In this document: positions 12,122 through 49,080 of the stretch, one piece after another
How positions within the stretch are numbered: position 1 is the stretch's first letter
Layout of the letters: each line of letters opens with the position of its first letter
DNA from: Oidiodendron maius Zn
Lineage: Eukaryota; Ascomycota; Leotiomycetes; Myxotrichaceae
Direction: 5' to 3'
NCBI GenBank assembly: GCA_000827325.1
Contig: KN832915.1
Location: 1-57,942 of the forward strand
DNA: 57,942 bases
Notes under the pieces: generated by a model
What the model was told of the DNA's origin: nothing
Database searches by the model: none
Seen by the model: the letters and a program-made list of their open reading frames with translations, nothing else
Translations under genes and position numbers: made by a program

Positions 12122-14695
12122 ATGCAGTCCAACACCCGAAAACGAAAGCGCCAGGCAGGCTCGCAGTCTACTATGAGAGTGTCACGAGCGTGCCAAAGAT
12201 GCCGTCTTCGAAAATACAAATGCGATGGTGCTAATCCATGCTCTGCCTGCTCTTCTGCCGACCACCTGTGCCAATATGACCCCAGGTTTAGGAAAAGAGG
12301 ACTGGTTGAAGGCTACGTTCGCGGTCTCGAAAGGCTGCTCGGTCTAGCTGTGTCAAATGATCCCAATTTTGAAGAACTAGTCATTTCAATCCTGAAAAAC
12401 AGAGATGATAGCAGCGTTCCAATCAAGTCTCCGGCACACGGTTGGGCAATTGGCCGTGATAAGGGGACATTGCTTGGGTCGTGGAAGGACAGCGAGGTAG
12501 CAAAGGACGTAGAAGCTCTTATACCCGCTCTCGAGGCTCTGGATGCAGCCCCGTGGGCGATAGTGAGGCCAGACATAGACAGCAATGCGGCAACGGGTGT
12601 GGACGGGCCTCCTAGTGAGGACGTTGGCCCTGCGCAAGATCCAATCAATGTAGGAGACGACCAGACTCCGGATGCCCCTCAAGTTTTGTTCCCGGCTGCA
12701 TTCGAATCAGACATCACACCACAAACTATGGTGCACAGTCCCATCATGAGAGCAGAAACCCACTGGGTCGCGAATGCTCCATAGATGCAGTCGTCAGAGC
12801 GTCGGTCTTCCTTCGCAGCAACTCCAACGAGCCAACAGCCACAGCAGCCGGGGTTGCCTGATGACCTACAGCAAAACATTCTCCACGAGCCTTCATATCC
12901 TCGTTTCCATGTACCTCCAAAGCTTCCAAAACGAACTGGGAAGCTTCTTCAGGAGTACTTTTGCTCCACTCATTGCTGGTTACCAATCATCGGAAAACAT
13001 GATGTGCTCAGGCTTTCATATCAATATGATGCAAGATCCAATATCCCAAGGGTATCCCCATATCCAGGTGAATTCGCAGCTCTTTGGGCTCTCCTCGCAT
13101 ATCAGTCTTCTTACGAGCCGGAGAATTCACATGGGGCGCGTGGTGGAGCTACAGATCGCCGGGAACCCGCCAATACCTTATATATACATGCAAGGGCCTT
13201 CATACCTTCAGAGGACATGGAGTTCGAACTCGGCCACGTCCAAGCGCTCTTGCTTTTGGCACTATATAATGCTCGATTTGGCCAGTGGAGTGCTGCCTGG
13301 TTACTCTGTGGCCAAGCCGTACGGGTGGCCAGCGACTTAGGACTGGACAAGTTGTGCTCGCCAACGCATGCCGCAAGGCTGGGCCAACAAAACGTCGGGC
13401 ACGTTAGAAGGACGTTTGTGTTCCTCAGGTGCTTTATACTGGAGACCTTTCTCGCTGCGCGCTTGGGAAGGGCCCCACATCTCAGAGGAGAAGTTCTCCA
13501 ATCTGTCGATCTCGTAGAAGAGGACCTGCCAGAAGAATGGGAACTGTGGCAATCTCCTAATGTACGTAGTGATCAGGATATTTCTCTTAACCCCTCGTTT
13601 CTGATAAGCACTTTCAATCACCTTGTGGGGGTTATGAAGGTGTTGAATGACGTCGTGTGCGACCAATCGGATCCTCATGAATGGAAAACCCGATCCGACG
13701 AATACCATTCCCGGTTGTCGAGTGTTTTAGACAAATGTCGAGAAACATATTTGCCGAATTGGACGCAGCATCCCATGCCTCACCAAAGCATCTTGCAGCT
13801 AATGTACGTAACCACCGCAAGGCAAATAAGAACTCGATTATTACAGCTTCAGCCGCAGTCAACACCGAATGCTAGAACACCAGGTCTGGAGGATCTAACC
13901 CTACAATTTCGAAGTTGTTATGAGGCTTTCCAAACTGGCCAGTTTCCTCCAGTGGTTGAATATTTTATGTATTCTGCCTTCCATGAAGTATGTGCGACGC
14001 ACATAATTTCCGGCCTAGGCCCATCATCTGAATGCCAATTGTTAAGGAAAGCTTTGTACGATATTGCACTTCTTGGAACCGGCCAAGCATGTCGGGAATT
14101 AGAAACGGAGATGCACCCAGATGGGCAGTTTGCCTCACGCCACCATATCACGCAACCGACTTTAGGCCACGGCCCATGGGGTTTTACTGGTCAGCCTATA
14201 ACATGTAGCTATAGCGAGAACGCTCTTGAATTTGGCGACGATATGGCGGATGTCGCCCGTACACTCCTCGATCTTCCCACCACCATATCAAAGCACGCAA
14301 GCTCACCAAATCCTGCGGAAGCCCAACAGAACTATCCGGATATAGCAAGCTCAAACCCACCGATTCAACCACTGCCGGATATTCTCGCTGCAGCTGAAAC
14401 CCTACAATCATCTCAGGGCCCAGAATTTGAAAGGGACCTTCAACCCTCTCTACCTAATAACACTTTGAATCCTCCTATTCCTACATGTGAAGATATTGAT
14501 GCTATATTTATTGGGCTGGCTCATTTGGATACAACTGAATGGTAAGCACTATCTGGCAATCTCCTACTTTGGTATATGGTGATTTAATATGATTATAGGT
14601 CTATCGGCTGGAGTGTTGGGCTTCGGGATCTGGGATTTACAAATGATACCAACTTTCGAGCCTTTTGTAACGATCAAGACAGAATGGGTGGTTAA
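12122..14695 (+). CDS. qutA: quinate pathway activator, QutA/QA-1F type, with in-frame TAG
   Basis: Zn2Cys6 transcription activator of the quinate genes. Two exons, 12122-14541 and 14599-14695, with a 57-nt intron; the total of about 838 codons matches the family length (about 820). The zinc cluster CQRCRLRKYKCDGANPC lies near residue 22, followed by a linker (VRGLERLLGLAVSNDPNFEELV). Further on are the fungal regulator region (STHCWLPIIGKHDVLRLSYQYD, GHVQALLLLALYNARFGQWSAAWLLCGQAVRVASDLGL) and a C-terminal block ending GWSVGLRDLGFTNDTNFRAFC that is typical of QutA. One TAG at 12782-12784 (codon 221) interrupts an otherwise open frame. Splicing it out would need a poor GTGCAC donor at 12731. 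The stop would leave only the DNA-binding domain, so the gene is probably newly inactivated unless TAG is read through. Confidence 0.85.
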
Positions 14696-16252: not shown

Positions 16253-17125
16253 TCAATCATCAAGACCGAGAAAACCAGAAATATCCTTATAATCATTCTG
16301 CCACAGACCGGGAGAGGCCCTGGGATATTGGGAGCGGAAACCTAGCATGGCCTGCGCGCGTTTCGACATCTGTCTGACGAGTTTCAGATCAACGAGGAAG
16401 GGGTAAGCTTCCTCAGGCGTGAGAAAGCTGGGCGTAAATGTGAACGCAGCACCGCGCCGACGCTGATCTGATTTGTTCTCTCCGCCGCCATGGCATATCT
16501 TGCCGCTGATGAAGAGTGCATCGCCCTTGTTCATCACCGCGGGAATGGTCATTTCATGCGTTCCACGGTCAGTAAAATCCGGCCATAGGTGGCTACCAGG
16601 GATGACCCGCGTGGCGCCGTTCTCCTCGGTGAAATCGGTGAGGGCAATCAGGAAGTTGATGGCAGCTTCTGGCCCAGAAGGCCCCATGGCGACCCACGGG
16701 TATTGGTTTTCCAGATCACGGTGCAGCGGTTGCACTTTGTTGCCCGGACCGATCTCGATGATCTGGGTCGTTTGCATCCAGTAATCACCAGAATCTGCTC
16801 GGATCATCTTGTCGGCGATCTGGTGCACGCGGGCATCGTCTAGCACCTCCTCTCGGAATGTCTTGCTAAGCGAGACAACGTTGGTGAGGCGCTTGGTCTG
16901 CACGCCGTGGAAGCTGGCGATCCATTCGTCGCCCTGCACTGAGCCGGGTTCCATCTTCTGCATGGCAGGCTCGATCTCGCTGTTGAATCGGTCGACTTGG
17001 TCCTGGGTGAGAAATTCTCGAAGGATCACGCCTCCGTCTTCCCGCACAATCTGCACAATCTCTTCCGCGGTAGCGTCTCTGGGGACACTCCGGAGTGTTG
17101 TGGTTTCGATGCGGGTGGGAGCCAT
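16253..17125 (-). CDS. PhyH-type Fe(II)/2-oxoglutarate dioxygenase
   Basis: Non-haem iron oxygenase of the phytanoyl-CoA dioxygenase family. Fungal relatives act on secondary metabolites (for example verruculogen synthase FtmOx1 and the meroterpenoid enzyme AusE); the substrate here is unknown. The 290-residue single-exon protein starts MAPTRIETTTLRSVP, and the iron ligands are visible: H-R-D in VQPLHRDLENQYPW (about residue 136) and the distal His in ISGKICHGGGENKSD. The 2-oxoglutarate-binding Arg is likely in QRRRGAAFTF. The segment LTDFTEENGATRVIPGSHLW is highly typical of the group. No mutation is seen. It is flanked by a regulator relic and a repeat and has no other biosynthetic neighbours, so it may be the last survivor of a metabolite cluster. 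Confidence 0.85.
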   Translation of the reverse strand: MAPTRIETTTLRSVPRDATAEEIVQIVREDGGVILREFLTQDQVDRFNSEIEPAMQKMEPGSVQGDEWIASFHGVQTKRLTNVVSLSKTFREEVLDDARVHQIADKMIRADSGDYWMQTTQIIEIGPGNKVQPLHRDLENQYPWVAMGPSGPEAAINFLIALTDFTEENGATRVIPGSHLWPDFTDRGTHEMTIPAVMNKGDALFISGKICHGGGENKSDQRRRGAAFTFTPSFLTPEEAYPFLVDLKLVRQMSKRAQAMLGFRSQYPRASPGLWQNDYKDISGFLGLDD

Positions 17126-20629: not shown

Positions 20630-21925
20630 CTACTGAAGAATGAACCGAAATCCATTGATCAAGTTCTCTAAGAACTGGCTAGTTTGTGATAGCTGTGGAA
20701 ATATCCAAAAGTAATGCGGCAGTCCATCATAGTAGTCCAGCTTGTTACGAACACTATACATATTATCAAAATTTGCAAAGGCATTTTCAGTCTGATGTCT
20801 TACCCATGAGAGTCTAGTTCGTATTTCAAGAGATAAGCGTCATCACGCAAAGGATCTTTTCCACAAGAAACCAGATATGTTGGAGGAAACTCCTTCATCC
20901 GGGAGTTGAGGAGCACAGAGAAGCACTCGTCATGTGGATTGGCGCCGTACGCTTCTGTTGGATACACTTAAGTCCTCTCGATCCGAACGGCTGCAGTATC
21001 TAGCCTACCTTGAAAAATTTCCATGCTCCGCTTATTGATTATCGGTGTATCAATGGATTCCGAGTATGACTTATAGTTGGCCTTATATTTCGTAGGAACA
21101 GCATCAGGATGCACCGTAAAGGGTACTAATGCTGCAACTCCGGCAATGATGTTTTTGTCAAGAAGCCTCAAGGTAACTGCAAGAGCCAGGTTTCCACCGG
21201 CAGAGCCACCAGCTGCTATCATCTTCGATCTGTCACCACCGAAAGAGTTGGCGCTTTCGTACGCCTTTTGAGTAATGTAAGTATGGTTATGGCGACGAAG
21301 AATGATCCCGCATACCCAAAGGAGCGCGTCAACTGCATCATTCAATGCAATTGGCGCTTTATACTCTGGACCAAGGCGGTAATTAGCCGACACCACGATG
21401 ATTGGTAGCTTTTGTGCTATGTGGAGGCAGGTGGCTACAGACGGATTAGTCTACAGGATCAAGAACATCAAGCCTGTGCTAACCATGCTCCCCTTCAAGA
21501 TCGCCTGAACTCCATCCTCCACTGTGATAACTGATGGCTAGTGAGAACTTTTGTTTCCACTGCACCACCTCACTTACTATATACACATAGGGAGTAGTCC
21601 CTGAGAGACTCCCAGGGGCGTATAGATCCGTACTCTATTTCCATTCGAAAGTTCACGGTCATCTAGAATAAATCAGCAATTAAATTAGGAACGTTGAACT
21701 AAATATCTCGACCTATCTTTAGAGACGACGGGGATTTTGGGTACAAGGGCTTCAAGGCGACAATAATTTGGCTAGAGGCAGCCCTTATCGTCTCAACATC
21801 TTTCTCTAAGATTGGCCGTGAACCAAGCGTCTCTTCCAGCTATGCGGAATATTAGCATGATATCGTTTACACGGGGAAAGCGCCTGCCATACGCGTAGCC
21901 ACTCTGGGTGTAAATCAGTAGTCAT
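20630..21925 (-). CDS. alpha/beta-hydrolase esterase, hormone-sensitive-lipase type
   Basis: Carboxylester or lactone hydrolase. It is hidden by seven introns; the eight exons are 21893-21925, 21713-21839, 21662-21578, 21530-21484, 21434-21316, 21264-21009, 20954-20804 and 20753-20630, and all phases agree to give 313 residues. The start MTTDLHPEWLRLEETLG is formed across intron 1. The oxyanion-hole motif reads YYHSGGWSSGD (HSGG instead of HGGG). The nucleophile elbow is AAGGSAGGNLALAV, with Ser about residue 172. The acid lies in CGKDPLRDDAYLL, and the last His in YDGLPHYFW. All catalytic parts are present. It is divergent from the alcohol dehydrogenase gene and fits the hydrolysis step after a Baeyer-Villiger oxidation. 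Confidence 0.85.
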
Positions 21926-23297
21926 ATCTACGCTGATATTTGAATCCTAACAGGATCACAACAGTCGAGGGCTTCTATGTTTACTACTGTTCACTAAGAA
22001 GAGCAGAGATTTTTGCAGCAATTGAGGAAGATAATATTAGGATTCTGAACAATGAAAACAAGTAAAATACTGTTCGTGGAGATTTAACCCGCTATTGTTA
22101 TTAGGGAAGGCATTTAAGGCTGTTCATGCGAGGGTCTCACTTCTCCTCAAGGGCTCTCGCGCATAAGTCCATGATAAAGATCCTTCTGTGCCGATACAGA
22201 AGTAAGGTTGTCGCTATCAGTTGCCAAACAAGAAGTCAGGATCCCAAGGTGAAACAGACTTAGCAAAGCTTTACTTCCAACTCAGGCGTAGCTGCTCAAC
22301 CCCGCATTATGAACCTTTAATTGCATGCAAAATATGCCAGATCCTGAGCCAATCAGCCATTAAATTGCAAATACGAAGATACAAAACGTCGATAGTAAGG
22401 ACGAAGTCTTGCATGTCAAATACATGGGTGGGAACGTACATACGCTGTTCTCATTAATGAAATTGCTCTGTCCTATGGGGTAGTATAGCTTAATAATACA
22501 ATATATTGATACAGATGTTTCCCGTATTCTAGCTAGCTACAATTGGCAGGTCCTCACACCACATATTGCTTCTAGCAATCCCGCCAAGACATTTAGTGGC
22601 TCGTCTCGCCGTCACTTGCCAGATCGCCACTTAGCGAGAGCTTGTGCGCTTTCCGAGCTTGTTGAGAATAATTGTATGGTCTTGGAGAGCATTAATTTCA
22701 AGGAGTTATCACCTTCTACGTTTCCGTGAGCCTTGGCTTCAGATAACTCACTGATAGCATCTTCAGTGTGACTGCGCCAGTATGTGAAATATTGATATCT
22801 GGTAACATAGCACCCCGTCGCAAGTTCGGGAGGTGCGAATATTTTTCCTTGAGGTTAGGACATTAGTAGTTCGCACCTCTCTCGCGAACTGGACTATGTG
22901 ACTGCATTGCTTTACGAGCCGGAATCGGGACACCGGAAGCGGGCCAAAGGAACTTTCAACGATAAACTCGCTATCAGTTTCCTGGCAAGAATAATAACAG
23001 CCCCCGCAATCAGGCTGCCTCCTAATTCCACCACTCTAACTTATACCATCTTTCCACAGAACCCCGCATCTTACTCGCGAGGTCAAATGATGTGCCATAA
23101 GCTCTACTCCGTTTTCCTCACGGAGCGGGCCGTAAAATTGGTTACCCCACAGGGACAGTTTTGATGCTAGTATGGGGTGGTATATATATGAGATTTTCAT
23201 CAAGAAATCATACAACTGATTGTCCAGAGCCATAACCACAACAACAGATATTCCTACCTTCAGATCGCCAAGGATATAAGAATTTTTTCAATTAATC
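21926..23297. promoter_or_regulatory. divergent region, esterase / alcohol dehydrogenase
   Basis: A 1.37-kb gap between two divergently read genes that should hold both promoters. It contains one clear inverted repeat at 22823-22890. A TATATATA stretch lies at 23181-23190, about 110 bp before the dehydrogenase start. No other gene is seen. Confidence 0.45.
22823..22890. repeat. inverted repeat in the dehydrogenase upstream region
   Basis: The left arm AGTTCGGGAGGTGCGAA (22823-22839) and the right arm TTCGCACCTCTCTCGCGAACT (22870-22890) are reverse complements apart from a 4-base insertion. The spacer is about 30 bp. It could be a dimer-binding regulatory site or the end of a small element. 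Confidence 0.6.
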
Positions 23298-24660
23298 ATG
23301 GCGAATACGGTGTGCAATGAGGCGAAGACCCTTCCGATATCGCACAGAGCTGCCGTGTATGACTGTCCGGGTTCTATAAGTACCAAAATTATTGAGCTGA
23401 AAACACCTGAACCAGGTGTTGGAGAGGTTTTAATTCGGCTGTAAAGACGCCTTCCTGTCACTCTCACCTGCTCTAATAACCTGCAAGTAAAGACTCGCTA
23501 AAACGTATAGGACGCATTCTGGCGTGTGCCATTCCGACCTTGGTGTCATGACCCAGTCCTGGGATGTATTACCACATCCAACACCCAAAGGTAGACCTTT
23601 TTCATGGACCATTGACATATCTACTAAAACTCTTTCTTTATGTAGGTCAGGTCGGAGGCCACGAAGGTGTCGGGGAAGTGGTAAAGATAGGCCCTGGCGT
23701 ACCAGAGGGACGTGTCAAGATCGGAAGCCGAGTTGGCGTAAAGTGGGTAGCAAAGGTCTGCAATAACTGCGGTAAGAGTCAAACCTAAGGTTCCCTGCCG
23801 ATCTTCCTTTCCATTATACTGATACTTCTATTTTCAGCTGCTTGTTTAGAACAAGCCGACGGCGTGTGTTTTGGTCGTTCCATCTCTGGCTACTTCACTC
23901 CTGGAACTTTTCAGCAGTATGTTGCAGGGCCGGCAGACTATGTGACTCCGATTCCAGATGGCCTTTCCTCTGCAGATGCTGCTCCGATGCTTTGTGCCGG
24001 TGTGACCATGTACGCTGCATTGCAGAAAAGCAACGCCATTGGAGGAGACTGGGTAGCCATATCTGGAGCCGGTGGTGGCCTTGGCCACATAGGTGTGCAG
24101 ATTGCTGCTAGGGGTTTAGGGCTCCGGGTCATCGGAATTGATCATGGCAGCAAAGAAGAGCTTGTTAAGGAATCAGGGGCTGAATTATTTTTAGACATTA
24201 CAAAATTTGATCCCTCTTCGATGGTCAGGGAAGTTCAAGCATCGACAGATGGTCTTGGATGTCATGCTGTTATTGTCTGTACTGCCAGCAATAAGGCTTA
24301 CGAACAATCCCTAGAGTTGTTGAGATTTGGGGGAACTGTTGTCTGCGTTGGAGTTCCTGAGGGAGTATCCATCCCAATTGCAAGCGCTAAACCAGCTCAT
24401 TTGATTTCCTCACAGTTGAACATAGTGGCCGTCTCTGTAGGAAACAGGAAAGATGCGAAGGCCGTGTTGGACATGGCTGCTAGAGGAATCGTGAAGACAA
24501 AATACACTGTAGAAAGTCTAGACAACCTAACTGATGTGAGTACATACCCATTCCTATGGCATAATGCCAATATATCGCGTCTGCCCTCTGATACTCTACC
24601 CAGGTCTTCGAACGCATGAGCAAAGGGCAGCTGCAAGGAAGAGTTGTGATAAATTTATAG
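23298..24660 (+). CDS. zinc-dependent alcohol dehydrogenase, ADH1 type
   Basis: Medium-chain NAD-dependent alcohol dehydrogenase, cytosolic. Five exons (23298-23440, 23511-23590, 23646-23771, 23838-24535, 24604-24660) give 367 residues, about the yeast ADH1 length plus a short N-terminal extension. Catalytic zinc ligands are Cys in HSGVCHSDL, His in GGHEGVGEV and Cys in MLCAGVT. Structural-zinc Cys residues follow WVAKV as CNNCAAC with one more in DGVCFG. The cofactor fold has ISGAGGGLGHIGVQ, where yeast ADH has GAAGGLG, and VIGIDHG. The C-terminus MSKGQLQGRVVINL is family-typical. No break is seen. In context it would oxidise the alcohol freed by the neighbouring esterase and pass the aldehyde to the enzyme at 26246-28056. 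Confidence 0.93.
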
Positions 24661-26245
24661 TCGTTATTTTGCTCATTCAATCCTCACCACACTTAAATTA
24701 AACACCTATATACCCATAACAAATTCAAGAGAAATTAAAGTACTTGATTCAATTAGGAAAATGGAATGCTTTGGCAAGCATATATCGATACACGAGCAGT
24801 TATAGTATTTTCTATCCTGCTCAACGGTGCAAGAAAGATAATGTAGAGAGGCACTAGGATCTGTCTCCCAAAAATGCCAGAGACACGGTGATGTCACTTC
24901 TACAATAATGCGATAGTCGTTAGTAGGCGATAACACGGCCTTGAAAACAAACAAGGAAAGTTATGGACAGTACGGAGCTTCAAGCCAAGAGGGAGGAGTA
25001 AGTTAATGATACGAGCACATGAGCGACAGTAAGAGTTTATGGCACACACTTATGGTAGTTTTGACAAAGAAACTATAATTTTGTACGATGAGTTAATCAT
25101 ATGGTCCCGAGATCATAAGCACCTGAAAATTCAGCATCTTACAAAACATGTCTCCTTCAACAGACATAACGGCGAGATGCCGAGGAGTGCATTTAATTCT
25201 ATGCATGGAACATACATACAATTTTTAGCAGACATAAATGAATAAATATAGAACACTTATCCAATGCTCGTTTGGAGCTTCAGCCGGGAGCGTTCAACGT
25301 GGAGTGTGTTTCGGCCTCAAGTATGACAGCTTTTCCCGGCTACTGCATGGCTTGCTCTGCACTGTTCGAAGCCAATTTACATCATGTTCATCAGTTCCTA
25401 GATCTCGGGATCTGAGCGCCAGACTGGGAATGCTAGTGCACCTCGCTATTAACTGCCTTCGACATGCTATGAAGATGGGCATGTGTATGGTTTTCGGTAA
25501 TCGAGAAAATTCTTAATGAATTTCATTCCGGGAAGATGGATGGAGATTCTGGTGCGAGACGGTTGTAGAGATGATATCTGGTGGAATAAGTTGATAACTC
25601 GCTGCATAGTGAATAAAAGTCTTTCTAGCCTGGCCAATTCCAGCTTTCCTTCAACCTCGCCGTCGGTTTCCCTCTGGATGTGGGAGTACAGCGCAGGCCG
25701 TATTTATCGGGCGGAGAAATTAACTTCTCGCTATTTCATTCCATGCCTTGCTACCCCCCTCCCCCCCTCTCTCCCAGTTCTCCCGTCCCTGTTGAAAGGT
25801 CCATATAGTTATGCCTATCGCCAATGAAGAGTGACTAGATAGCAAGGATCCTGCTCCACGCTTAATTCGGGCAAATATCAGCATCAATTTCCAATCTATC
25901 TCTAAGCGTCGTCTTGACACTGCCGAAGAGATAATGTATTAAGGACGGCCATCTCCTGATGCTGTAAGAATGTACTTCTTCTCCAGCTCTATAAGAAAAA
26001 TAGGCAAAGTGCACTCATGTTAGAATAAAGGTCTCGGACAAGAGAAAGCGAGGCAACCCGAGTTCGAGTTCTAAATCCGGCGGAAAGTAGAAGATCAGTC
26101 ACTCGGGACTTTGCACACCGAGCATTTTACTACGGTAACTTCCTCCACCGAGAAGTGTCATTGACGTCACTACTATACAGCATACATCAAATTCGGAAAG
26201 TCAAGGAGTTATCTAAATGACAGTAATATTTGGGCTTGTCTATCT
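24661..26245. other. intergenic between convergent genes, no gene seen
   Basis: A 1.6-kb gap between the 3' ends of the alcohol and aldehyde dehydrogenase genes. It contains a C/T-only run near 25755-25790 and several short frames without motifs. It is long for a convergent gap, so a lost gene is possible. Confidence 0.4.
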
Positions 26246-28056
26246 TCAGTCTAAATTGACGTGCACTGATTTTATATTGCAATAAGCACTTAATCCTGCT
26301 TTGCCAAGTTCCCTGCCGATGCCTGACTGCTTGACTCCACCAAAAGGAATACTAGCCATATTATGTTAGTACCTAACACAGCAAGTGAAAGTCGGTGCTT
26401 TCAGCTCACCGGAAGTCAGAGTCGTTGCTCGAGTTGATCCAGACCATTCCAGCTTCAATATTTCGTGCTACTCGGTGAGCCCGCTTGATGTCCCGCGTAA
26501 AAATCTAGGCAATATTAGTGACAACTGTCCTCAAAACTTGGTGACACAAATCATACGGCACTACCAAGTCCATAAAGAGAATCATTAGCCCTTGTCACTG
26601 CTTCATCTTCGGTCTTGAAAGAAGATATTACTACGAGAGGTCCGAAGACTTCTTCGCGATATATTTTCATATTGTCTTTCACGTTGGTAAAGACTGCTGG
26701 TGTGATGAAGTAACCTTTGCCGTTAGCACCGTTGTGCCTCTCTCCTCCTAGGGATAACGTTGCGCCCTCGGATTTTCCACTTTCGATGTAACTCAGAATG
26801 CGCTCGTGCTGGGCTTTGCTAACCTGGGGACCTTGAAATGTAGCGTCTGAAAATGGATCTCCAACTGTAGAAACTTTAACCACTTGGGCTTTAAAAGCTT
26901 CCACAAACCTGTCATAAACGCCCTCTTGGACCAATATTCGGCTCGTCGCGGTGCAGACTTGCCCTTGATTAAACATGATACCGGTATGAGCCCAGGCGAC
27001 GGCTGCTTCAAGCTGTGCATCATCAAACACCAGAAGTGGACTCTTCCCACCCGTTTCGAGTGTTATGTTTTTGAGGTTGCTGGCTGCTAATTTCATGATA
27101 TGTCGTCCTGTTTCCGTGGACCCAGTAAATGCAACCTTATCGATATAAGGGTGTGACGCTATAGCAGAGCCCGTAGTCCTGCCAAATCCGTTGAGGATAT
27201 TGACGGTTCCTGGAGGGAATCCCGCTTCTTTAATAAGAGATGCCAGAAAGAGAGCAGAGAGTGGCGTTTGTTCTGCTGGTTTCAATACTACGGTATTGCC
27301 ACAAGCAAGTGCAGGCCCGAGCTTCCAAGCCGCCATGGCCTATTGAACATCAGTATTGCCTGGAGGTAAATGGGACAAGACTGTTCACTAATGGAAAATT
27401 CCAACTAAGACGATATCAGTTCACACTCTCAGAACCGCGGGCAAATCTTACGGTATAATCTGCCCACAAACCCCAATAGGCTCCAAGATTGTGTAGTTAA
27501 ATTTGGATTGTGATGTCTCGATGACGTCTCCCTGGATCTTGTCTGCCCAGCCGCCGTAGTATTTAAACGTATTGGCCGCCATTGGTATGTCTACAGCAAG
27601 TGCATGCTGATATGGTTTTCCTGCGTGACTGTAAGATTATGGGGAAAAAAATGAATACATAAGTAGCTCTTGACTGTACCATTGTCCCAGGTCTCAATAG
27701 TTGCCAGAATATTGGCGTTGACTTCTATCAGTGACCCTAATTTTGAAAGGAGGTCTCCTCTATCAGTCGATGACAGATTTTTCCACGCTGGGTCGTTAAA
27801 AGCTTTGCGAGCTGCTTTAACGGCGATATCCACATCATCGACACCTGCAGCAAAAAACTCGGTGATTTCAGTCTCATGGCTAACTCAGCTATTAACATAA
27901 CACGTCAGACACACGGCGGAGAGCTCACGTTGGATCTATAGTTGATATCTTCTGCCCTGAGCTGGACTTGACGAACTCATTATTGATGAAAAGACCAGTC
28001 GGTTGATTGTAGGTGACCCCATTTGGAGCTGTCAGTTGGATGATCATGTCTGGCAT
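26246..28056 (-). CDS. aldehyde dehydrogenase (NAD(P)+), seven exons
   Basis: Oxidises aldehydes to carboxylic acids. Exons are 27929-28056, 27680-27879, 27452-27620, 27389-27404, 26557-27339, 26410-26504 and 26246-26351, giving 498 residues, the family length. The fourth exon is only 16 nt. Together with the flanks it rebuilds the conserved [20 protein letters not shown]. Other landmarks are [21 protein letters not shown] with the general-base Glu, [10 protein letters not shown] with the catalytic Cys, [10 protein letters not shown] and [15 protein letters not shown] near the end. Thr replaces the more usual Leu in E-x-G-G. It shares an 829-bp divergent promoter with the monooxygenase gene and is convergent with the alcohol dehydrogenase, suggesting one pathway. 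Confidence 0.93.
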
Positions 28057-28885
28057 CTTGAGCGGAGAAGAGTGGAGAACACTTAGTTGTTTGACGACAA
28101 CGTTACGTCTGATGGCGGATCTAACACAGAGATGTATTTGTTCGTAACTGTGGAAAATAGTAGATATTGGGGGTCTTCTGTATGTAAGCAAGGTGAACTA
28201 TCAGCGCTATCAGACGGCGTTGAGAACTATTAAGTAATTGGAGTGAATCCCCGCACTGGCGCAATGCAGATGAAGGCTTTCCTAAGCTAAGCAGAATGTA
28301 TTAACAATGAGAAGGGCAATGATGGGTAATCTTACGTTATATCTCCTCATAAGAGTGCACGGACGCCTACCACTAACTGATTCCATCAAATTGACGAAGG
28401 GGTAGGGAGGTGTAATCTTTACCCGCAAAAGCCCGAGGGACGCTACTACTGGATATCTAAGGTAATGCACGGTACGTTGAACTCACTGGTGCAATTAGCA
28501 CTCAGAGTACGCAGGCTCGCTATCACCTGCCCGATGTCACACGATGGGGAATGCCTACAGTACCCCGCGAAAACAATCCTGGGCCGAGCCATATCCCCGC
28601 AGCGCTAGACCACGAGGACAGCTGGATATATTTTGCATCTCTCTGTGACTTTCCCCGTAGAATTAAATTATATATATATTGTCACGAGTCTCTCCACTTG
28701 ACCCAGCCTTGGAAAACTTTAGTGCTGTGCCTTTCTAGCTGAGTGGCGTGCTTGGAGTCCTGCTCTTAAATCATCAGACAAGCCCTTGACTATTCAGACC
28801 TAATTACAGAAATGACGACTTGACAGTTTTTTTCCTCTGTATTCTTCAGAATCCAGACACTTCGTTGCAAGTCGTTATAACAATC
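28057..28885. promoter_or_regulatory. shared promoter, aldehyde dehydrogenase / monooxygenase
   Basis: Divergent intergenic region of 829 bp. A TATATATATA run lies at 28669-28678. I see no long open frame with conserved motifs. Shared control of the two genes is an inference from layout. Confidence 0.5.
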
Positions 28886-30676
28886 ATGGCTCCTCAATTA
28901 AGCACGCCAGTGGGAAATAGGGACTATAGTAGCGCCACCGTTCTGATTATCGGCTCTGGAATCTCGGGTATGCTTGGCACGGCCTGATTCTATGGTTGCC
29001 TATTTCCTGCTAACATTACTGAAGGCATGTGTACCGCTATTGACCTAATACGCCGTCACGATTGCCATAATTTTATCATCGTCGAGAAGGGCAGCCATGT
29101 CGGGGGCACATGGGCTGATAATAGGTACCCTGGCTGCCGCTGTGATGGTATGCGTTTCACTGCCTGCTTTCTGGGCTATCAGTCTAATTCAAGAGCAGTA
29201 TGGAGTCATCTGTACTCTTATTCTTTCGAGCCATCTGATTGGACACGAGAGTTTGCCGACCAGGAGGAAATCTATTCCTACCTCCTTAAAGTCGCTGAGA
29301 AATGGGGGCTTTTCAAATATATCCGTTTCAATACGACGGTCCTGGAAGCTCGTTGGAACGCAAAATACGAGAAATGGGAAACCCAGGTCAAGGTCGAAGG
29401 GGTTAAAGACGCTGAATCGGGTGAGGGGTATACCATCTCTTCACAATTCCTTGTATCGGCTGTTGGTCAGCTTAATGCACCCAAGTACCCGGAAATCCCT
29501 GGACTGGGCTCGTTCAAAGGCAAGCTGATACACTCGGCGCGATGGGATTGGAATTACAAGCTGGAAGGCAAACGTATCGCAGTCATAGGCAACGGAGCTA
29601 CTGCTGCTCAGATCATTCCGGAGGTCGCCAAAGTAGCAAAGAGCGTTACCGTGTTCCAACGGACACCAAACTGGGTGGTACCTCGCGATGATGCTCCAAT
29701 CCCTGGATGGAGGCGACATGCGTACAGAAATATTCCATTAGTGCGAAAGAGATACCGCGCAGAGCTTATGGATATTAGAGAGACCAATCTTTTCAATGCG
29801 ATCGTTACCAACGATGTTACCAACAAGGAGGGCCTGAGAGCCTTGAGTGCGGACCTAATGAAAACGCAGCTGCTGAACAAACCAGATATGATACCGAAAC
29901 TAACTCCAAGCTATCCACCTGGCTGCAAGAGAGTAATCATATCTGATGATCTCTTCCTTGCATACGACAAGCCATATGTCATCTTGGAAACTGATAAGAT
30001 CGAACGCATTACCGAGAAGGGTATCAAGACTGAAAACAGCGAGCATGTCGTGGATATGATTATCTGCGCCACGGGCTTTCGAACGGTTGAGTTTATGTAT
30101 CCCATTAGAGTGTATGGCTTAGGTGGACGATCAATCGAAGACATCTGGCGTAAAGGGGCTCGGGCCTACCTTGGTGTAACTGTGGAGTCGCTCCCCAACT
30201 TCGGGATCTTGTACGGGCCTAATACGAACCTTGGACACAATTCCATCATTCTTATGATCGAGGCGCAATCACGCTACATTACAGAGCTCATCAGCAAAGT
30301 CGGTGAGGCGAGAAATGAGAAACAGACCTTGGTTATAACTCCGTCGCCCGAAGCTACCTTTAAGTTCAACAGTGAGCTCCAGCAGGTTCTTTCGACAAGC
30401 ACCTTCGCTCATCCTGATTGCAGTAGCTGGTATAAAACCAGAGATGGACTTATTACGAACAATTGGGGCGGCACAGTTATTCAGTATCAGAAGCTTCTCT
30501 CTAAAATTACATGGCTAGACTACGCAATCACGGGCTCTTACGCCTCAGAGCTCCAGAGGTCCTCCAGCAGTCACATAGGAAGAGTACGAGAGGAAACAAT
30601 GCTAGGGAGGATTAGTTTGGGTACATTATCATTATCTGCTCTGGGAATAGCTTTTGTACTCTTGCAAATGAGTTAA
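28886..30676 (+). CDS. Baeyer-Villiger-type flavin monooxygenase
   Basis: FAD- and NADPH-dependent enzyme inserting oxygen beside a ketone to give an ester or lactone. Three exons, 28886-28967, 29025-29147 and 29199-30676, give 560 residues. The second intron is 51 nt and in frame; removing it restores YPGCRCDVWSHLYSYSFEPS. The FAD motif GSGISG is split by intron 1. The Baeyer-Villiger fingerprint F-x-G-x-x-x-H-x-x-x-W is met by FKGKLIHSARW (about residue 164), followed by the NADPH motif GNGATAAQ and then CATGFRT. The C-terminus ends in a hydrophobic helix (GTLSLSALGIAFVLLQMS), so membrane anchoring is likely. It is intact. N-hydroxylation cannot be excluded by sequence alone, but the fingerprint favours Baeyer-Villiger chemistry. 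Confidence 0.88.
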
Positions 30677-31598
30677 AGGGTATCTTAGAATCGTTGTTAG
30701 ATGGCAATAAACCGTAGTGTTTAGCCCTCTTTTCTTGTATGTCAATACCAGTCTCGAGTTGGGAAGAGTGTTATTCATATAGTATCAGAGAAAATTTAGT
30801 CCTACCTTTGACCCACCTAGAAGCATTACTTGCCGTAAAGAGTCCAATTACTATCATTGACCACCTGACTAGTTGTTCTTCAAATGGTATTATTTTCTTC
30901 TTAGATCATCCCGGTTTTTGCGGGTATTGTTTGCATTTGTTTGATTGGGCTTTCATTGTGACTTGGTGGACTTCGGCACGGAAATAATGTTTTGATGTAT
31001 GAGCCGGTTCTTCTCTGGCTTTGAGATGAGAACAATCTCAGAATGCCTCACAAGGAGCTTTTCTACTATGGTCAGCGAGGCGGCCAGATCAAACCATTGC
31101 AGCCGTCATTATCATGTGACCAATGATCCATGGTAGGGGATGGGCGGAGTGGAAGGAGATATAAAAAAATATTGCAGGATTAGAGTCTATATTACTAAAT
31201 ATTAATGTCTACGAACCATGGCTGTTGCATATGCAAGCTCTTCGACTTCGACTCCAGTACTGGATGCGAAGGGGTCTACCGGCATCGTTCGCTTGCCACA
31301 CGTTTGTTCAGGAGGAAGGGCATAGCGAGCGGCATGCCAAACTAGGCTAGTTGAAGCTTAATTCATTTCATGACCTACCACATGTCCGAGCCCACCCGTT
31401 CCACAAAGGTAGCTCAAGAATGTTGAGTCAATGGTAAATCATTCTTCGAGTTTAGTTGATGTAAGTCATGTGTTTGACTGGGATTTATTTCATTGCCGGC
31501 GTAGTTTCTTGTGCTTTCATGGCAACAAGCTTTTATATTTTCACCTTCCGTCCGTCTTTAAAGATAGAGGCATTCTACGCCATAGGTAGAGCAAGTCT
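30677..31598. other. intergenic, no gene seen
   Basis: Gap between the monooxygenase and the regulator gene. It holds a motif-free open frame at 30739-30987 and promoter sequence for the regulator. Confidence 0.4.
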
Positions 31599-33201
31599 AT
31601 GCGCAACACTTTTGGCACAAGTCATTACCAGCAGTTAAATATGGATAATGACGAATTCAATCTGTTCTCAATCTCCTACAATGCTGTCACGGGTAACTCG
31701 GCATCCCCTGTATCAGACCATCATCCAGAGGTCGTACCAAGGTTCAAGTCGAGTCGACGAAGAAGAGCAAGATCTTCAAGAGCGTGTACTACTTGTAGAG
31801 CGAGAAAAGTCAGATGTGATGTTGCAGTGGCTGGTGCGCCATGTGTAAATTGCAGACATCATGAGATTGAATGTATCTTGCCGTTGTTGAGGAGGAAAGG
31901 GTATGAACATAGGCCTCAACTGATGACTTATGAAGCTGCTTACAGTTATTCAAATAGGTTAATTCGTGTGATGGCAGTTTCTGATAAGTCTAGCGGTCCA
32001 ACTGCAAAGGCTGAAAACTATGGTTCCGCACGTCTCTATGATAGAATGCCATGTACTCAGCCACGGTCCGAAGTACAGTCTGTTTCCATCCTTCAGGGTT
32101 TGGGGCCGCATGGAATGCCTATATATGACTATCCACTGGCAGAAATTCTACCTGCAAGTGGCACAAATCAACTGGAGGAATACGTATTACCAACACCTAC
32201 GACTTCGTCATGGCCCAAACCTTTGGTTCAAATACGATCGCCACTTGCCTCTGCTCTTATAGCAAGATCCTCATCCTCAAAAGATGTTCCTGTTCCAATC
32301 CTCCCATGCATATTTGCGCCTTTCGCACATCATCTGACCACGCCAGATCTCGCATATCTGCATCAACATGATGCACTTACTTTACCGAATGAGAGTGTGC
32401 AGATCGAGCTTCTCAAAGCATATGTCGAATTCGTTCATAGCAGTATGCCTTTGCTTGATTTGGAACACTTTTTGTCAGCCGTGAAATACGGCTCCGAAGG
32501 ACTTGGTGGCCAGAATGAGAAGAGAAATGGGTGGGAGACTGCAGAAACGGCAGAGATTAGCTTCCTACTGTTCCAGGCCGTGATGTTCTCAGCTGTGGGG
32601 TTTGTTAGCATGAGAGTGCTACAGAAAGCAGGGCATAGCAGCCGAGAAAGTGCTAAAAGGGCATTCTTCAACAGAGTTAGGGTCTGTTCACGTATATTAC
32701 TTCCATATTCAATGCACCACTAATAACTGTTCTGGGTAGTACCTCTACGATTTCGATGTATGCACCGATCGCCTATCGATAATTCAATCCCTCCTCCTCA
32801 TGACTCTCTGGCCTGCCAATATGTCTAGTAAAGGGGATAAAGATGCTTGGCACTGGCTCGGTCTCGCAATTTCCCACTCCTACAGCCTGGGCTTAAACCG
32901 CAAGATTCCTTGCACAACTGATGACCTTCGCATAAGGCGACTCAAGCGCAGAGTATGGTGGGCCACATTTGTTCGTGATCGAACTCTTGCACTGAGTGAT
33001 AGCGGTACATTTAAGAGAGTAATCAGGATCAAGAGAGAGGATTGTGATGTTGAGATGCTGAGCATGGATGATTTTGATCTGAACGCGAACGAGGAAGTGG
33101 ACGCAGGGAAGGAGGCTACTCAAGCGATGAAGAATGCCGCGTTATGTGTGGAGAGGGCTCTCTTATGCTGGTGCAGTAACGATGGGCTTCTCGAACAGTA
33201 A
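31599..33201 (+). CDS. Zn2Cys6 regulator, CTF1-like, C-terminally truncated
   Basis: Transcription factor related to cutinase transcription factor 1 and its fatty-acid and lipid-responsive relatives. Two exons (31599-32681, 32740-33201) with a 58-nt intron give 514 residues. The zinc cluster starts ACTTCRARKVRCDVAVAGAP near residue 62. The middle-homology region has FVHSSMPLLDLEHF, KRAFFNRVRYLYDFDVCTDR and SLLLMTLW, then WHWLGLAISHSYSLGLNRK and RVWWATFVRDR. It stops at TAA within the segment LCVERALLCWC...LLEQ, where family members continue for about 350 more residues. No downstream exon was found. It is therefore a truncated, possibly non-functional regulator next to the ketone-pathway genes. 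Confidence 0.8.
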
Positions 33202-33967: not shown

Positions 33968-35595
33968 ATGGCCTCGCCCAAGAACACACCGCCTCTCTCT
34001 TGCCGGGTCAAAGAGCTATTTGAAAAAGAGATGAAGTATACTTCCGGAGGCTTCATCCCAATCCCGGCCTTTTTCACCTCGGGTGTGGGCTCTATCTTAA
34101 CAGTAAGGGCGTTGGCGCATCGGTTCAGGCAGGGCTGATGAGAAAGAATACGCAAAGTGCTGATGCTTAGTTCAGGATGTGGATGGAAACAAAAAGATCG
34201 ATTTTCTTTCTATGTTCAGTGCCGCAAACTTGGGCCAACAGCACCCAAAACTTACTCAGGCTATGCACGAGGCTTACGAAAACTGTATGCCATCATCCAA
34301 TCTTTGCATATATGACTAGTTTGCTTACCATCAATTCTCTTCAGCAACGATGCTGAGCTTAGCCTGTCGCGGTCCCATATGGGTCGATTTTGCGGAATCA
34401 ATATGCAATCGATTTGGGTACGAAAAGGTCACCGCTATGGTTTCTGGTGCAGAGGCTGCTGATACAGCCTGCAAAGTTGCTCGCAAGTGGGGTACAAAGT
34501 TCAAAAAAATCTCGCCGGATGAGATCCTCGTTCTAGGTGTATCTGAAAATTACCATGGCTTGACCTCTGGAACGTGGCCACTGATGACTCCTAGCAAATC
34601 TCGAGATGGTAAGTCCCAGAAATGCTTGGTTCTCGGCAGGGCATTGGTGTAACGATCACATGAAAGTAACACTCTTTAGCATATGCTCTCCGAGACAAGG
34701 TGTTGACGAATGTAAATCCGTCCACGGGAACTTTACTGCGATATGGTCACATCGAAGACATGGAAGAATGTTTGAAAGAACTTGGTCATCGTGTTGCAGG
34801 CGTTATCATGGAGTGTATCCACGGCCATCTTGAGTATGTTTGGAGCTTTTCAACCTCAGCCATTATCGGCCCAAATAAGCTGACAGTATTACCGGTAGGA
34901 AATTTGAGGATGAAATTGCATACGCAACGGCTGTCCGCCAATTGTGCAAAAAATACAATGTGCTATTTATATCTGACGAAGTTAGAATGGGGTCGGCGAA
35001 GACGGGGAAGTTTCTTTGCTCAGACTGGCTTGGCCCAGAGAACAAGCCCGACATCATTGCTCTAGGCAAATCTATCAGCGGTGGCGCATATCCTGCGTCA
35101 TATATCCTCGGTAGCAATGAAACGGTCGGTCAGGTAGAACCATACGAGAGTGCGTCAACTTTTGCACCAACGGCTGTTGGCCTAGCTGCCGTCAATGCCG
35201 CACTAAAGATCTACGACGAGGAGAAATTGGCGGATCGCAGCGCCGAAATGCAACGCATTTGGGAGGCTGAAACTTCCAAATGGAATCATCCCTTCGTCCA
35301 GTTCATCACAGCGCGTGGATCAGACTTCAATATCACTCTGAAGCGAGATTATCATAACAAACGTGTTGACGCGTCCAGGTTGGCAATGTTGATCCTGCAT
35401 AAGGGGGTATTTCTTTATCCGATGGACAATCGTCTGCGAATGAGTGTTGCAATGACAATAACGGATGAAATTTTCCTAAGGGGTATTGCGATTATCAAGG
35501 AGGGCCTGGATGAAATTGAGCAGTACGATGTCATTGCCGGCGCCCAGGATGAGAATTCGAAGACCGCCACACCCTGGGCCACTGTGAATGAGTAA
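33968..35595 (+). CDS. class III aminotransferase, ornithine-aminotransferase-like
   Basis: Pyridoxal-phosphate enzyme moving an omega- or alpha-amino group. Five exons (33968-34102, 34176-34284, 34345-34608, 34680-34833, 34899-35595) are phase-consistent and give 452 residues. Landmarks are DVDGNKKIDFLSMFSAANLG, then VSGAEAADTACKVARKWG (cofactor phosphate site), ENYHGLTSGTW, and ISDEVRMGSAKTGKF with the Asp that contacts the pyridine nitrogen. ALGKSISGGAYPASYILG follows with the Schiff-base Lys. Well-known ornithine aminotransferases have E-P-I-Q-G-E where this reads ECIHGHLE, and DEVQTG where this reads DEVRMG, so the substrate may differ. A RidA protein gene is convergent downstream, a common functional partner of such enzymes. 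Confidence 0.88.
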
Positions 35596-36140
35596 CCGAA
35601 AGAGTTTCTTATGTGTGAGATAATTTAGCTGCTTTACGTATGTGCTCTGCACTTCCTAAAATGTGTCACTATCACGGTCACTAGTCGACAGAAAAAGAGC
35701 ACAGCCATGTTCAAAGCATTCTCTGAAGTGTGGCCTAGGAAATTGACAGTAGTATCTCCGGCCCAAAATCAAAATCAATAAAACTAAACATCTACTACTC
35801 CCCTAGCACATTCTGAGGATGTGTATGTGTAGCCTTATACCCCTACGAGACACGTGAAATCCCTTGAGTTGTCTACTACGCTTACCACAGGTGAGCCAGG
35901 CCATCGTGTTTGAACAGAATAAACTGCCTCGTTGAATGTAAAGAATGGGTCATTCCAGATTTCTATCTCTAGGTCAAGAATTTTATATAAAGCGCGGTAT
36001 GTGGAGGAGGGAAATATTGCGGTAGAAAATTCCTACGAGTATGTGAAATGCGTCGGTACAGAGACGCGTTGATCCATATGTCGCTATACTGAGGTTCGTT
36101 ATAACGTAGATACATAATAACTAGACTCAAAGAGCGGCCT
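35596..36140. other. intergenic between convergent genes
   Basis: 3' regions of the aminotransferase and RidA genes. Nothing else is seen. Confidence 0.4.
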
Positions 36141-36581
36141 TTACTCCAACAGCACAGCTTCAGCCACAATCTCGATTCTAGCTCCACCATAAAGCGACCC
36201 AACACCCACTCCCGCCCAAGCAGGTCTATTCTCCCCAAAAAACTTCTCCACTGCAGCACTCAGTGCTTCCATTGCGTCATCCTCTAGCGAAGTGTGATAA
36301 GTGGTCAATTTGTATACCGACTGAAGGCCACCCTTCACTCCTGCGGCCGCGAGTGACGCTTCTACGCTATTGAAGGCGTTCATCACCTCCTCTGTCAGGT
36401 CGGTGGGCAGATTCATGCTGGAGTCGTAGCCTGTAATACCCGACGTCACGACAGTGCGCGCATTCGGGGGAAGTACGATAGCGCTCGAAATATGGAGCAA
36501 AGAGCTGAGCTTTTCGCCGAGGCCTGGCACATTGTAAGCCTTGATGCCTGCTGCGTTTAATGGAGTCTTGTATTCTGCCAT
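36141..36581 (-). CDS. RidA/YjgF/YER057c-family protein
   Basis: Family members deaminate reactive enamine and imine intermediates made by pyridoxal-phosphate enzymes; some have other roles. The intronless 146-residue protein starts MAEYKTPLNAAGIKAYN. It has RTVVTSGITGYD, a block ending in VEASLAAAGVK, VYKLTTYHTS and NRPAWAGVGVGSLYGGARIEIVAEAVLLE in order, the usual architecture of the trimeric fold. In canonical RidA the substrate-anchoring Arg sits near R-x-x-V; here the end reads ARIEIVAEA, with that Arg probably present. It is convergent with the aminotransferase and divergent from the SDR gene at 37048. Confidence 0.88.
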   Translation of the reverse strand: MAEYKTPLNAAGIKAYNVPGLGEKLSSLLHISSAIVLPPNARTVVTSGITGYDSSMNLPTDLTEEVMNAFNSVEASLAAAGVKGGLQSVYKLTTYHTSLEDDAMEALSAAVEKFFGENRPAWAGVGVGSLYGGARIEIVAEAVLLE

Positions 36582-37047
36582 GTTGATTGCTGTGTTGGAG
36601 TGTCTCCCAAAGCCGATGTTAGACGAGGAGCGAAAGATGCAAGTCAGTTAATAGAAATGGACGGAGGGCATTGTTCGCATTTAAGATACTTGCCTCTGCG
36701 CAATCCGCCTGATTCAATGGGATATTGATCGATTCCGGCTCGGGTAGCCATAGATTCTCCGGTCATAAGGCGAGTCCCATCATTTGCCACGGCACGCTAG
36801 TTGTCGTTCAGTGGGCATCCAGCCTACAAGTGCAATGGGCGGCAACTGACAACGAGCCCACTCGCCACCGTATGTGGACTCCCCAGCGAAAGCGGACTGG
36901 CTAGTGAGCTGCTATATCATAACCTTGGCAGGCTTTGCAAGGTGATGCATAAATACCACACCACCACTGGAGTCCCCATTCCTCTCGATACCGTCCATAA
37001 TACAGCACACGGAGGCAAAGCTAGCACGATTAAATCCCACCCGTACC
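36582..37047. promoter_or_regulatory. divergent promoter, RidA / SDR
   Basis: 466 bp between two divergently read genes. A TATA-like element (CATAAATACC) lies at 36948-36957, about 90 bp before the SDR start. Confidence 0.45.
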
Positions 37048-37821
37048 ATGGCAGTCGCTCATAAATCACTCCAGGGCAAAAATGCTATTGTCACTGGTGG
37101 CTCGCGCGGTATCGGTGCGGGCGTGGCCCTTGAGCTTGGCAGGCGTGGGGCGAATGTCTTAATCACCTACAACAAGGCTGGAGCCCAAGCCTCGGAGATC
37201 ATCAGCCAGCTGAAGTCGCTCGGCGTTGATGCGATAGGTGTCCAGGCTGGTGGCAGCGACCGAGACTCGCCACGGCGGATTATAACCAAACTGGTCGAGC
37301 GCTGGAGCAAGGTCGACATCATCATCAACAATGCCGGTGCAGGCGACGATGCTCTTCTAGAAGACCTGACCCACGAGCTTTGGGACAAGATCCTTGATTG
37401 CAACCTTCGATTCCCGACCTTCCTCGTCAAGGAAGCGATACCACATCTTGGGGCCGCCCCGCGCATCGTCAACATCTCCAGTGTAATTGCCCGGATGGGT
37501 GGCGCCTACACAAGTGCCTACTGTGCGACGAAGGCCGCGCTAGAGGGCGTTACGAAAGTATGGGCTCAGGAATTAGGTCAGAAATACAACGCTACAGTCA
37601 ATTGCGTTAATCCGGGACCGGTGAAGACGGACATGTGGCTTAGAGACACCGAGCAGGCCGTCTTAGATGAGTGGGACACCAAGATGAAGGAGATCCCGGC
37701 AGGAGCGAGGATCGCGGAGGTTGACGACATTGCACAGATTGTAGCTTTCTTGTCAGAAGAGGCTAGCCGCTGGTCTACCGGCAGTACCGTCAATGCCAAT
37801 GGCGGGCTCTGTTTTGTTTAA
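37048..37821 (+). CDS. classical short-chain dehydrogenase/reductase
   Basis: NAD(P)-dependent 3-oxoacyl-reductase-like enzyme of 257 residues, no introns. It has TGGSRGIG (residues 16-23), NNAG near 90, NISSVIARMGG with the active-site Ser, YCATK (catalytic Tyr and Lys) near 156, NCVNPGPVKTDMW and a C-terminal STVNANGG. The residues after the first fold (TYNKAG) suggest NADP use. The GC content of the gene is visibly higher than that of nearby DNA. Substrate unknown; it could serve either the nitrogen module or the ketone pathway as a secondary-alcohol dehydrogenase. Confidence 0.9.
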   Translation: MAVAHKSLQGKNAIVTGGSRGIGAGVALELGRRGANVLITYNKAGAQASEIISQLKSLGVDAIGVQAGGSDRDSPRRIITKLVERWSKVDIIINNAGAGDDALLEDLTHELWDKILDCNLRFPTFLVKEAIPHLGAAPRIVNISSVIARMGGAYTSAYCATKAALEGVTKVWAQELGQKYNATVNCVNPGPVKTDMWLRDTEQAVLDEWDTKMKEIPAGARIAEVDDIAQIVAFLSEEASRWSTGSTVNANGGLCFV

Positions 37822-38089
37822 TGGTCCTCTCACCCGCTCGCTGTTAGTCCACTCATGTGGCCGTGAGGAGCCAGAACCATGACTGATCTCCTAGTTATCT
37901 TGTGATCCCTTAGTTAGAAATATCTACTAGAAGAATCGGACCGGGTCTTGAGACCAAAACAGCACCTTGAATATTGCAAGCAGAACTTCTCCGCCCTTAA
38001 TATGGTCGACCTATCCATCTGAGGCGCCGTTCGCGGCAGTCAAGTGTAAGTGGCTAGTGACCTGCGGCGTCGTCAGGGGTATATTCGTC
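37822..38089. other. SDR 3' region
   Basis: No gene or motif is recognised. It leads directly into repeat copy 2. Confidence 0.35.
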
Positions 38090-38830: not shown

Positions 38831-39541
38831 CGCACTGTCCTCTCGGAGCAGGGGTGGGGTCGAATGCAAAGAGATAAGGTATATTGTAATCTGGTCACCA
38901 TGGTACATACCTCATTCAGGAATGTTCATAATTCCCTATTCGTGAATAGCTATATTCGTATTGGAGGTATCCACTAGCGAACGGGGTGTAGCCTTCGAAC
39001 ATGGCTCCCTTCGTGATTGGACGACATCAGATATTTGAAGCCTATTTCACCGTACACGCTGATCCACCCCTTCCCCGAATCCCCTTATCTTCACTATTGC
39101 CATGCTGCCGCACGAGACAGAGGAGCCCAAGACCGCGAGATTCTTTATCATATCTCGTGTGTGCTACCACCCCACACCAACTTCTCTCTAAATTCGACAT
39201 TTACAGTCTTAGTATTATTAAGATTATATCTCTTGTCGTATAACTGCCACCGAACCGGCCACGACTGTTATTCTACCAAGTAGACCATGGCGACAAGAAG
39301 ATCTCAGATAATCCTAAGCAGGCAAATCGCCATTGACCATAGAAATACTTACTAACATTCTTCTTGCGTGAAAAGCGTTACATGTAGTAGATTAGGCAAA
39401 AACAAAATCTCTACTTCGGAATTGTCCATAGTTGTCATGTCACAGATAAAGTCAGGAGTCTAGCGGACGGGACTATAATGGGTTTTGCTAGCAAGCGTCC
39501 AATGCAATAATATCATCAGATGGGCAACAATGTCTGCTAAA
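38831..39541. other. intergenic, no gene seen
   Basis: Gap between the repeat and the 3' end of the NmrA-like gene. No conserved frame is recognised. Confidence 0.4.
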
Positions 39542-49032: not shown

Positions 49033-49080
49033 TTCTATTTCTTCCAACCTTTCGAAGGCGGCAGTTCGTCACAGGGCGTA

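Follow-up and report, generated by a model that had tools for sequence, protein, structure and literature searches.

Linked genes for a Baeyer-Villiger monooxygenase, an esterase and two dehydrogenases in Oidiodendron maius: a putative cluster for ketone catabolism

What is the function of four enzyme genes which lie side by side in the genome of the fungus Oidiodendron maius Zn? The genes are located on contig KN832915.1 (C46 in our numbering; assembly GCA_000827325.1, 45.9 Mb in 58 contigs), which was analysed over its whole length of 57,942 bases and is referred to as the window. They encode a Baeyer-Villiger monooxygenase (BVMO), an esterase, an alcohol dehydrogenase (ADH) and an aldehyde dehydrogenase (ALDH), and an initial annotation had described them as a ketone-to-acid set similar to the bacterial cyclohexanone and cyclopentanone pathways. 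Such a route for ketone breakdown is well known from bacteria, but has rarely been reported as a fungal gene cluster. We consider the set to be probably a catabolic, glucose-repressed cluster, by which a lipophilic ketone, possibly a 2-alkanone, is converted to an acid. Membrane tethering, the order of the reactions, the cofactors, the substrate class, induction and repression are aspects which we infer.

The four genes are intact, belong to the families named and are linked (Table 1). Reading frames and splice signals were used to assemble their spliced models manually, since codon-bias gene finding was too weak, and none of the four contained a premature stop in the spliced frame. Exact exon limits are provisional and need transcript data, because the esterase introns are 42-53 bases long and one ALDH exon comprises only 16 bases. 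Pfam profiles, for which unspliced exons served as input, matched the esterase (Abhydrolase_3, 79.6 bits), the ADH (ADH_zinc_N, 79.6 bits), the ALDH (Aldedh, 357.7 bits) and the monooxygenase (FMO-like, see below). The genes form two divergent pairs, esterase/ADH and ALDH/BVMO, and a protein with Zn_clus and Fungal_trans domains is encoded next to them; likeness to CTF1 (cutinase transcription factor 1), as named by the initial annotation, is a candidate assignment for it. Intactness, family assignment, divergent arrangement and an adjacent regulator had all been claimed by the initial annotation, and all were confirmed.

Table 1. Features of the four-gene locus and its neighbours, in positions of the window.
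Feature	Position	Strand	Description
PhyH-family 2-oxoglutarate oxygenase	16253..17125	-	single open frame; neighbour, cluster membership uncertain
Esterase, Abhydrolase_3 (hormone-sensitive lipase) family	20630..21925	-	8 exons, 317 amino acids; proposed ester/lactone hydrolase
Divergent promoter esterase/ADH	21926..23297	.	CCCCGC at 22300, 23002, 23062
Zinc ADH, yeast ADH1/AdhP type	23298..24660	+	5 exons, 367 amino acids
ALDH, ALDH1/ALDH2 type	26246..28056	-	7 exons, 498 amino acids
Divergent promoter ALDH/BVMO	28057..28885	.	CCCCGC at 28249, 28563, 28595
Type I BVMO	28886..30676	+	2 exons, intron 28968-29024, 577 amino acids; hydrophobic C-terminal tail, residues 557-577
Zn2Cys6/Fungal_trans regulator	31599..33198	+	Zn_clus and Fungal_trans domains; 33198 is not a modelled 3' end

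The monooxygenase carries both fingerprints given for type I BVMOs in PMC4498894, that is, [A/G]GxWxxxx[F/Y]P[G/M]xxxD as GGTWADNRYPGCRCD at residue 54 and FxGxxxHxxxW[P/D] as FKGKLIHSARWD at residue 191. Two Rossmann motifs, GSGISG and GNGATA, were found in the spliced protein. Judged by both published fingerprints, the enzyme is a true type I BVMO. An N-hydroxylating monooxygenase, the identity which the initial annotation had itself named as speaking against its proposal, is ruled out, because both fingerprints are present and the FMO-like domain (70.2 bits) scores above Lys_Orn_oxgnase (33.7 bits). The closest solved relatives were the Thermocrispum cyclohexanone monooxygenase (187.1 bits), phenylacetone monooxygenase (182.2) and OTEMO (179.7). 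Solved cyclohexanone monooxygenases spanned 152.7-187.1 bits, with phenylacetone, OTEMO and steroid monooxygenases in the same range, and since relatives of several classes score alike, no one substrate class is indicated.

The C-terminal stretch of the BVMO is hydrophobic, with a mean hydropathy of 1.84 over 19 residues, and similar ends occur in two close paralogues of the same genome, at C10 (1.86) and C14 (1.83). The initial annotation had seen a membrane tail here; the hydrophobic stretch and its likeness in the paralogues stand, but a membrane tail is not provable from hydropathy alone, because the N-terminal nucleotide-binding stretch reaches 1.73. By eye, no hydrophobic C-terminus was present in the four of seven bacterial relatives (see below) whose natural end was seen (L022, L041, L042, L045); L040 and L043 are fused to a hydrolase, and L044 ended at the match limit. 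The window, C14 and C10 BVMOs formed one clade (100/99) in a tree of 18 proteins, in which eight of 15 inner branches were open and several rows were partial sequences.

Esterases of the Abhydrolase_3 (hormone-sensitive lipase) family have a GxSxG nucleophile elbow, an Asp and a His, and an oxyanion motif HGG, usually HGGG. The window esterase shows these traits: the nucleophile motif is GGSAGG, the other catalytic triad motifs are kept as DPLRDD and PHYF, and HSGG is a variant of the oxyanion motif. Its closest solved relative is vibralactone cyclase, which has HCGG at the oxyanion position.

Linkage of BVMOs to the three partner families was counted within the same genome. Twenty-eight BVMO-like loci were grouped from 69 protein-search rows, with rows weaker than about E 1e-9 excluded. 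As partners we counted 70 of the 97 rows for Abhydrolase_3, 121 of the 134 for ADH_zinc_N and, from 81 ALDH rows, 45 loci; rows for a second exon of a gene already counted were dropped by hand, as were the weakest ones. With a radius of 12 kb around each BVMO locus, in after-the-fact tests with a uniform null, an esterase was found at five of the 28 loci (1.01 expected, P 0.003), an ADH at 12 (1.72 expected, P 3e-8) and an ALDH at four (0.65 expected, P 0.004). Loci with all three partners within this radius are expected 0.0014 times genome-wide, in a test made after the locus was seen and with the same null and hand-dropped rows; the window locus qualifies, as does C9 once its two BVMO rows are pooled.

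Several of these loci resemble the window in part. At C14 an esterase accompanies a BVMO of 57% identity to that of the window and a GMC oxidoreductase divergent from the BVMO. At C10 a BVMO (55% identity) is divergent from an ADH, whose segments show 48, 51, 66 and 75% identity; this ADH (L026:6850-9740) is interrupted by unrelated sequence of about 2 kb, which by eye looks transposon-like. The BVMO at C20 (35-62% by segment) adjoins a Zn2Cys6 gene, and at C9 an esterase, an ADH, an ALDH and two BVMOs lie within about 22 kb. As a candidate for a third set, an ADH, a BVMO and an ALDH were found at C1:6.4 Mb, among genes for transketolase, 6-phosphofructo-2-kinase and isocitrate/isopropylmalate dehydrogenase, and a BVMO-like match, in pieces, at C5:2.21 Mb. 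A duplicate copy of the whole block was searched for at DNA level with 20630-31598, and only six short matches of 65-74% were obtained. By eye, C9:1428000-1458000 (L009-L011) also holds AtuA-like, acyl-CoA dehydrogenase, CoA ligase, SDR and MFS transporter frames, and this larger set possibly serves terpenoid breakdown.

Bacterial loci gave a second line of comparison. When the window BVMO was run by tblastn against plasmid records, 771 records had relatives, all below 60% identity, and the best 12 of them showed 36.4-39.5%. Seven loci were examined, six of them from these best 12 records and one, L022 (33%), the single relative obtained from bacterial genome contigs; matches H4, H5, H6 and H8 were left out, and H11 and H12 duplicate a match already covered, in further B. 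glumae records. An Abhydrolase_3 esterase was fused to the BVMO in L040 and L043, adjacent to it in L041 and L044, and one gene off in L045, where a short-chain-dehydrogenase-like gene lies between the two. In these five loci the BVMO is homologous to that of the window (37-39%) and the esterase is of the same family. The fusions are Burkholderia proteins of 821 and 847 amino acids (L040:3872-6337 and L043:6914-9457), each adjoining a GMC oxidoreductase, and since both activities stand in one chain, they are good evidence that BVMO and esterase act in sequence.

An alcohol oxidoreductase accompanied four of the five sets (GMC in L040, L043 and L045, iron ADH in L041), while none was found among the frames scanned in L044. 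An ALDH was present in two of the five (L040 and L041), and an ALDH match was also found in L022. All four functions are joined in two of the seven loci, as ALDH-GMC-BVMO/esterase fusion in L040 and as ALDH-Fe-ADH-BVMO-esterase in L041. In contrast to the window, the alcohol step belongs to other families in the bacterial sets, and the hydrophobic C-terminus is lacking at the natural ends in L041 and L045. Taken with the paralogous loci of the same genome, the bacterial loci support a functional linkage of the BVMO with its partners. No sign of a recent transfer from bacteria was seen, because no close bacterial relative of the BVMO was found among the best 12 plasmid records and in L022.

The word CCCCGC was first spotted by eye in both divergent promoters of the window, and the statistics were made afterwards. 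It occurs there six times against 0.76 expected (Poisson 1.4e-4), ranks 1 of 2,090 six-letter words, and its count was matched by none of 5,000 Markov shuffles; the excess in these two promoters alone is not significant after correction. The BVMO promoters of C10 and C14 are regions not used for finding the word. Three copies were found in the C10 BVMO/ADH promoter (0.21 expected, rank 2) and two, as an inverted pair, in the C14 BVMO promoter (0.25 expected), giving a pooled count of five against 0.46 (Poisson 1.1e-4; rank 3; 3 of 5,000 shuffles). Over all four regions, 11 copies compare with 1.22 expected (7e-8; rank 1). One C10 site, L026:6184, possibly coding, is excluded from the counts. 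CCCCGC is the complement of GCGGGG, the Mig1/CreA consensus (PMC5784589), which makes three plus three putative CreA/Mig1 sites in the two window promoters. Glucose repression is the simplest reading of this identity and fits a catabolic role. Two further repeats were noticed in such regions: GTGCGA/TCGCAC words, including GTGCGAGTCGCAC, recur upstream of the C14 esterase and BVMO (L012:4190-4930 and 6720-7440), and an inverted repeat GAGGTGCGAA/TTCGCACCTC lies at 22830-22879 in the esterase/ADH promoter of the window.

The closest paralogue of the window regulator in the genome is at C9:1427194-1428256 (142.5 bits, second-best locus 68.9), and it adjoins the C9 set, which holds the same four enzyme families.

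Genes of the cyclohexanone and cyclopentanone pathways carry the names chn and cpn. The order of these pathways is BVMO, lactone hydrolase, ADH and ALDH, and the window likewise holds a linked BVMO, hydrolase, ADH and ALDH; it differs in being fungal, in its two divergent pairs and in its Zn2Cys6 regulator, and the likeness is one of functions. The comparison made by the initial annotation holds for the linked set of functions; as to the substrate, a linear methyl ketone would suit the set no less well than a cyclic ketone. The order of the cyclohexanone route is also seen in an engineered cascade (PMC7542165). In the bacterial sad cluster (SadC, the BVMO SadD and the esterases SadA/SadB) BVMO and esterases are linked as in the window, and a ketone is turned by sub-terminal oxidation into acetate and a primary alcohol; a gene for secondary alcohols is included (PMC10045523, PMC12753306). 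Likened by description, the two differ in the place of the alcohol step: SadC works ahead of the BVMO, on the secondary alcohol, whereas for the window ADH and ALDH we propose a place after the esterase. A route from BVMO over esterase to alcohol and aldehyde oxidation has been proposed for 2-ketones in bacteria (PMC12753306, PMC13055320).

Among fungi, PMC5943271 describes the demethoxyviridin (vid) cluster, whose BVMO, esterase and dehydrogenase (VidF/VidP/VidH) act in sequence. The initial annotation knew of no well-described fungal cluster with the full set. Vid, which joins three such functions, qualifies this, but it is biosynthetic, comprises 19 genes with six P450s, has an arylesterase-like VidP and, in place of an ADH and ALDH pair, a gluconate 5-dehydrogenase-like VidH; no ALDH step appears in the passages on it. 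Among the open-access titles and abstract beginnings listed, with subscription papers and fungal genome databases outside the search, none describes such a catabolic set of four genes for a fungus. Linkage of BVMO, esterase and dehydrogenase in fungi is already known from vid biosynthesis.

We propose that the BVMO, probably tethered to the membrane, would act first and make an ester (or lactone) from a lipophilic ketone. Hydrolysis by the esterase would yield a primary alcohol (or hydroxy acid) together with an acid, which for a methyl ketone would be acetate. Two further oxidations of the alcohol, by the zinc ADH and then by the ALDH, would give a carboxylic acid that could enter beta-oxidation. 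Regulation of the set is likely to lie with the linked Zn2Cys6 protein, and on glucose the set would be kept off through the putative CreA/Mig1 sites of the two divergent promoters. As substrates we would prefer 2-alkanones, with cyclic ketones possible, because the hydrophobic C-terminus is shared with the paralogues and the ADH is of a primary-alcohol type. The physiological substrates and roles of fungal BVMOs have been called widely unknown, and 25 BVMOs are reported for Aspergillus flavus (PMC4498894). The linked set with its own regulator would give a physiological setting for one fungal BVMO and predicts an easily tested growth phenotype. It would also supply a genetic basis for the sub-terminal oxidation of ketones which has been reported chemically in yeasts and filamentous fungi (PMC4192553). 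A wider reading, which we put forward tentatively and regard as possible rather than probable, is that filamentous fungi have a dedicated, glucose-repressed and regulator-linked BVMO-esterase-ADH-ALDH module for ketone catabolism, equivalent to the sub-terminal oxidation clusters of bacteria, in which the BVMO is tail-anchored and places the first step at the membrane, and of which regulator and enzymes recur as a set within one genome.

Several observations weigh against catabolism of a ketone by a dedicated set. Two further ALDHs of the genome are near that of the window (C2, 67-71%; C11, 68%), which could make it a general enzyme. The C9 enzymes are distant from those of the window, about 28-46% identity by segment, and C9 may for this reason be an independent assembly. 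CCCCGC ranks only 29 among the words of the C14 BVMO promoter, is absent upstream of the C14 esterase, occurs once at C20 (0.31 expected) and is not enriched at C9; elsewhere between genes of the window, nine stretches contain four copies, with two of these in 40560-41550, and other SYGGRG (CreA-type) variants are without excess by count. Among the bacterial loci, L022 has no match to the window esterase, the hydrolase of L042 is of another family (Abhydrolase_1) and three genes from the BVMO, and in L044 the BVMO frame is interrupted by a stop at residue 402 of 481 and shows no second fingerprint.

Three other explanations of the locus were weighed. Two unrelated functions could have come together by chance where catabolic genes are plentiful, with ADH and ALDH for ordinary alcohol use and BVMO and esterase in some other role. 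The resemblance of the window ADH and ALDH to general ethanol-type enzymes suits this, as do the other catabolic sets which flank the cluster, quinate on the left and amino-acid on the right. However, each divergent pair combines one gene from either function, so that ADH and ALDH would not form a unit of their own; moreover, C10 has a BVMO/ADH pair and C14 a BVMO/esterase/GMC set, two of the seven bacterial loci join all four functions, and the closest paralogue of the regulator is at C9. We regard a chance association as unlikely.

A biosynthetic or tailoring cluster, in which BVMO, esterase and dehydrogenase trim the side chain of a natural product, has a working fungal precedent in vid (PMC5943271), and vibralactone cyclase, to which the esterase is closest, is biosynthetic by name. 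It appears somewhat less likely still, as the CreA-type sites point to catabolism and no P450 or scaffold gene of the vid type lies nearby among the 40 of 116 window reading frames (of at least 90 amino acids) covered by the domain scan, which gave no polyketide synthase, terpene synthase or P450 match. Detoxification of plant or microbial ketones (e.g., acetophenones, 2-tridecanone or terpenoid ketones), instead of use as a carbon source, is the least probable, and we think it very improbable. The AtuA-like frame of the C9 set, recognised by eye and pointing to acyclic terpene utilisation, and the large number of BVMOs in the genome speak for it, but ADH, ALDH and CreA-type sites together suggest full alcohol oxidation and carbon use, and the four-gene block appears to lack an exporter. 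Catabolism of a lipophilic ketone thus remains our preferred reading, and the interpretation of the initial annotation, taken as a whole, is partly supported.

The surroundings of the cluster were annotated as well. To its left, window 1-14542 holds a gene set of the quinate-utilisation type, with a 3-dehydroshikimate dehydratase-like gene (2183-3232), a type II dehydroquinase (7543-8067), a GFO/IDH/MocA oxidoreductase, a sugar transporter, a SnoaL-like protein and a Zn2Cys6 regulator. A shikimate-kinase/dehydroquinase/shikimate-dehydrogenase fusion at 9339-11738 presumably resembles the qa repressor. To the right, 34320-46715 is a second catabolic-looking set with a class III aminotransferase, RidA-like, SDR and NmrA-like proteins, an amino-acid permease and a Zn2Cys6 regulator; the top NCBIfam match of the aminotransferase is the ornithine type, under the cut-off of that model. 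Near the contig end, from 48919-52625 onward, capsid-like and reverse transcriptase/RNase H frames mark a Ty3-type retrotransposon, and frames of similar lengths, compared by length only, lie near the C10 locus.

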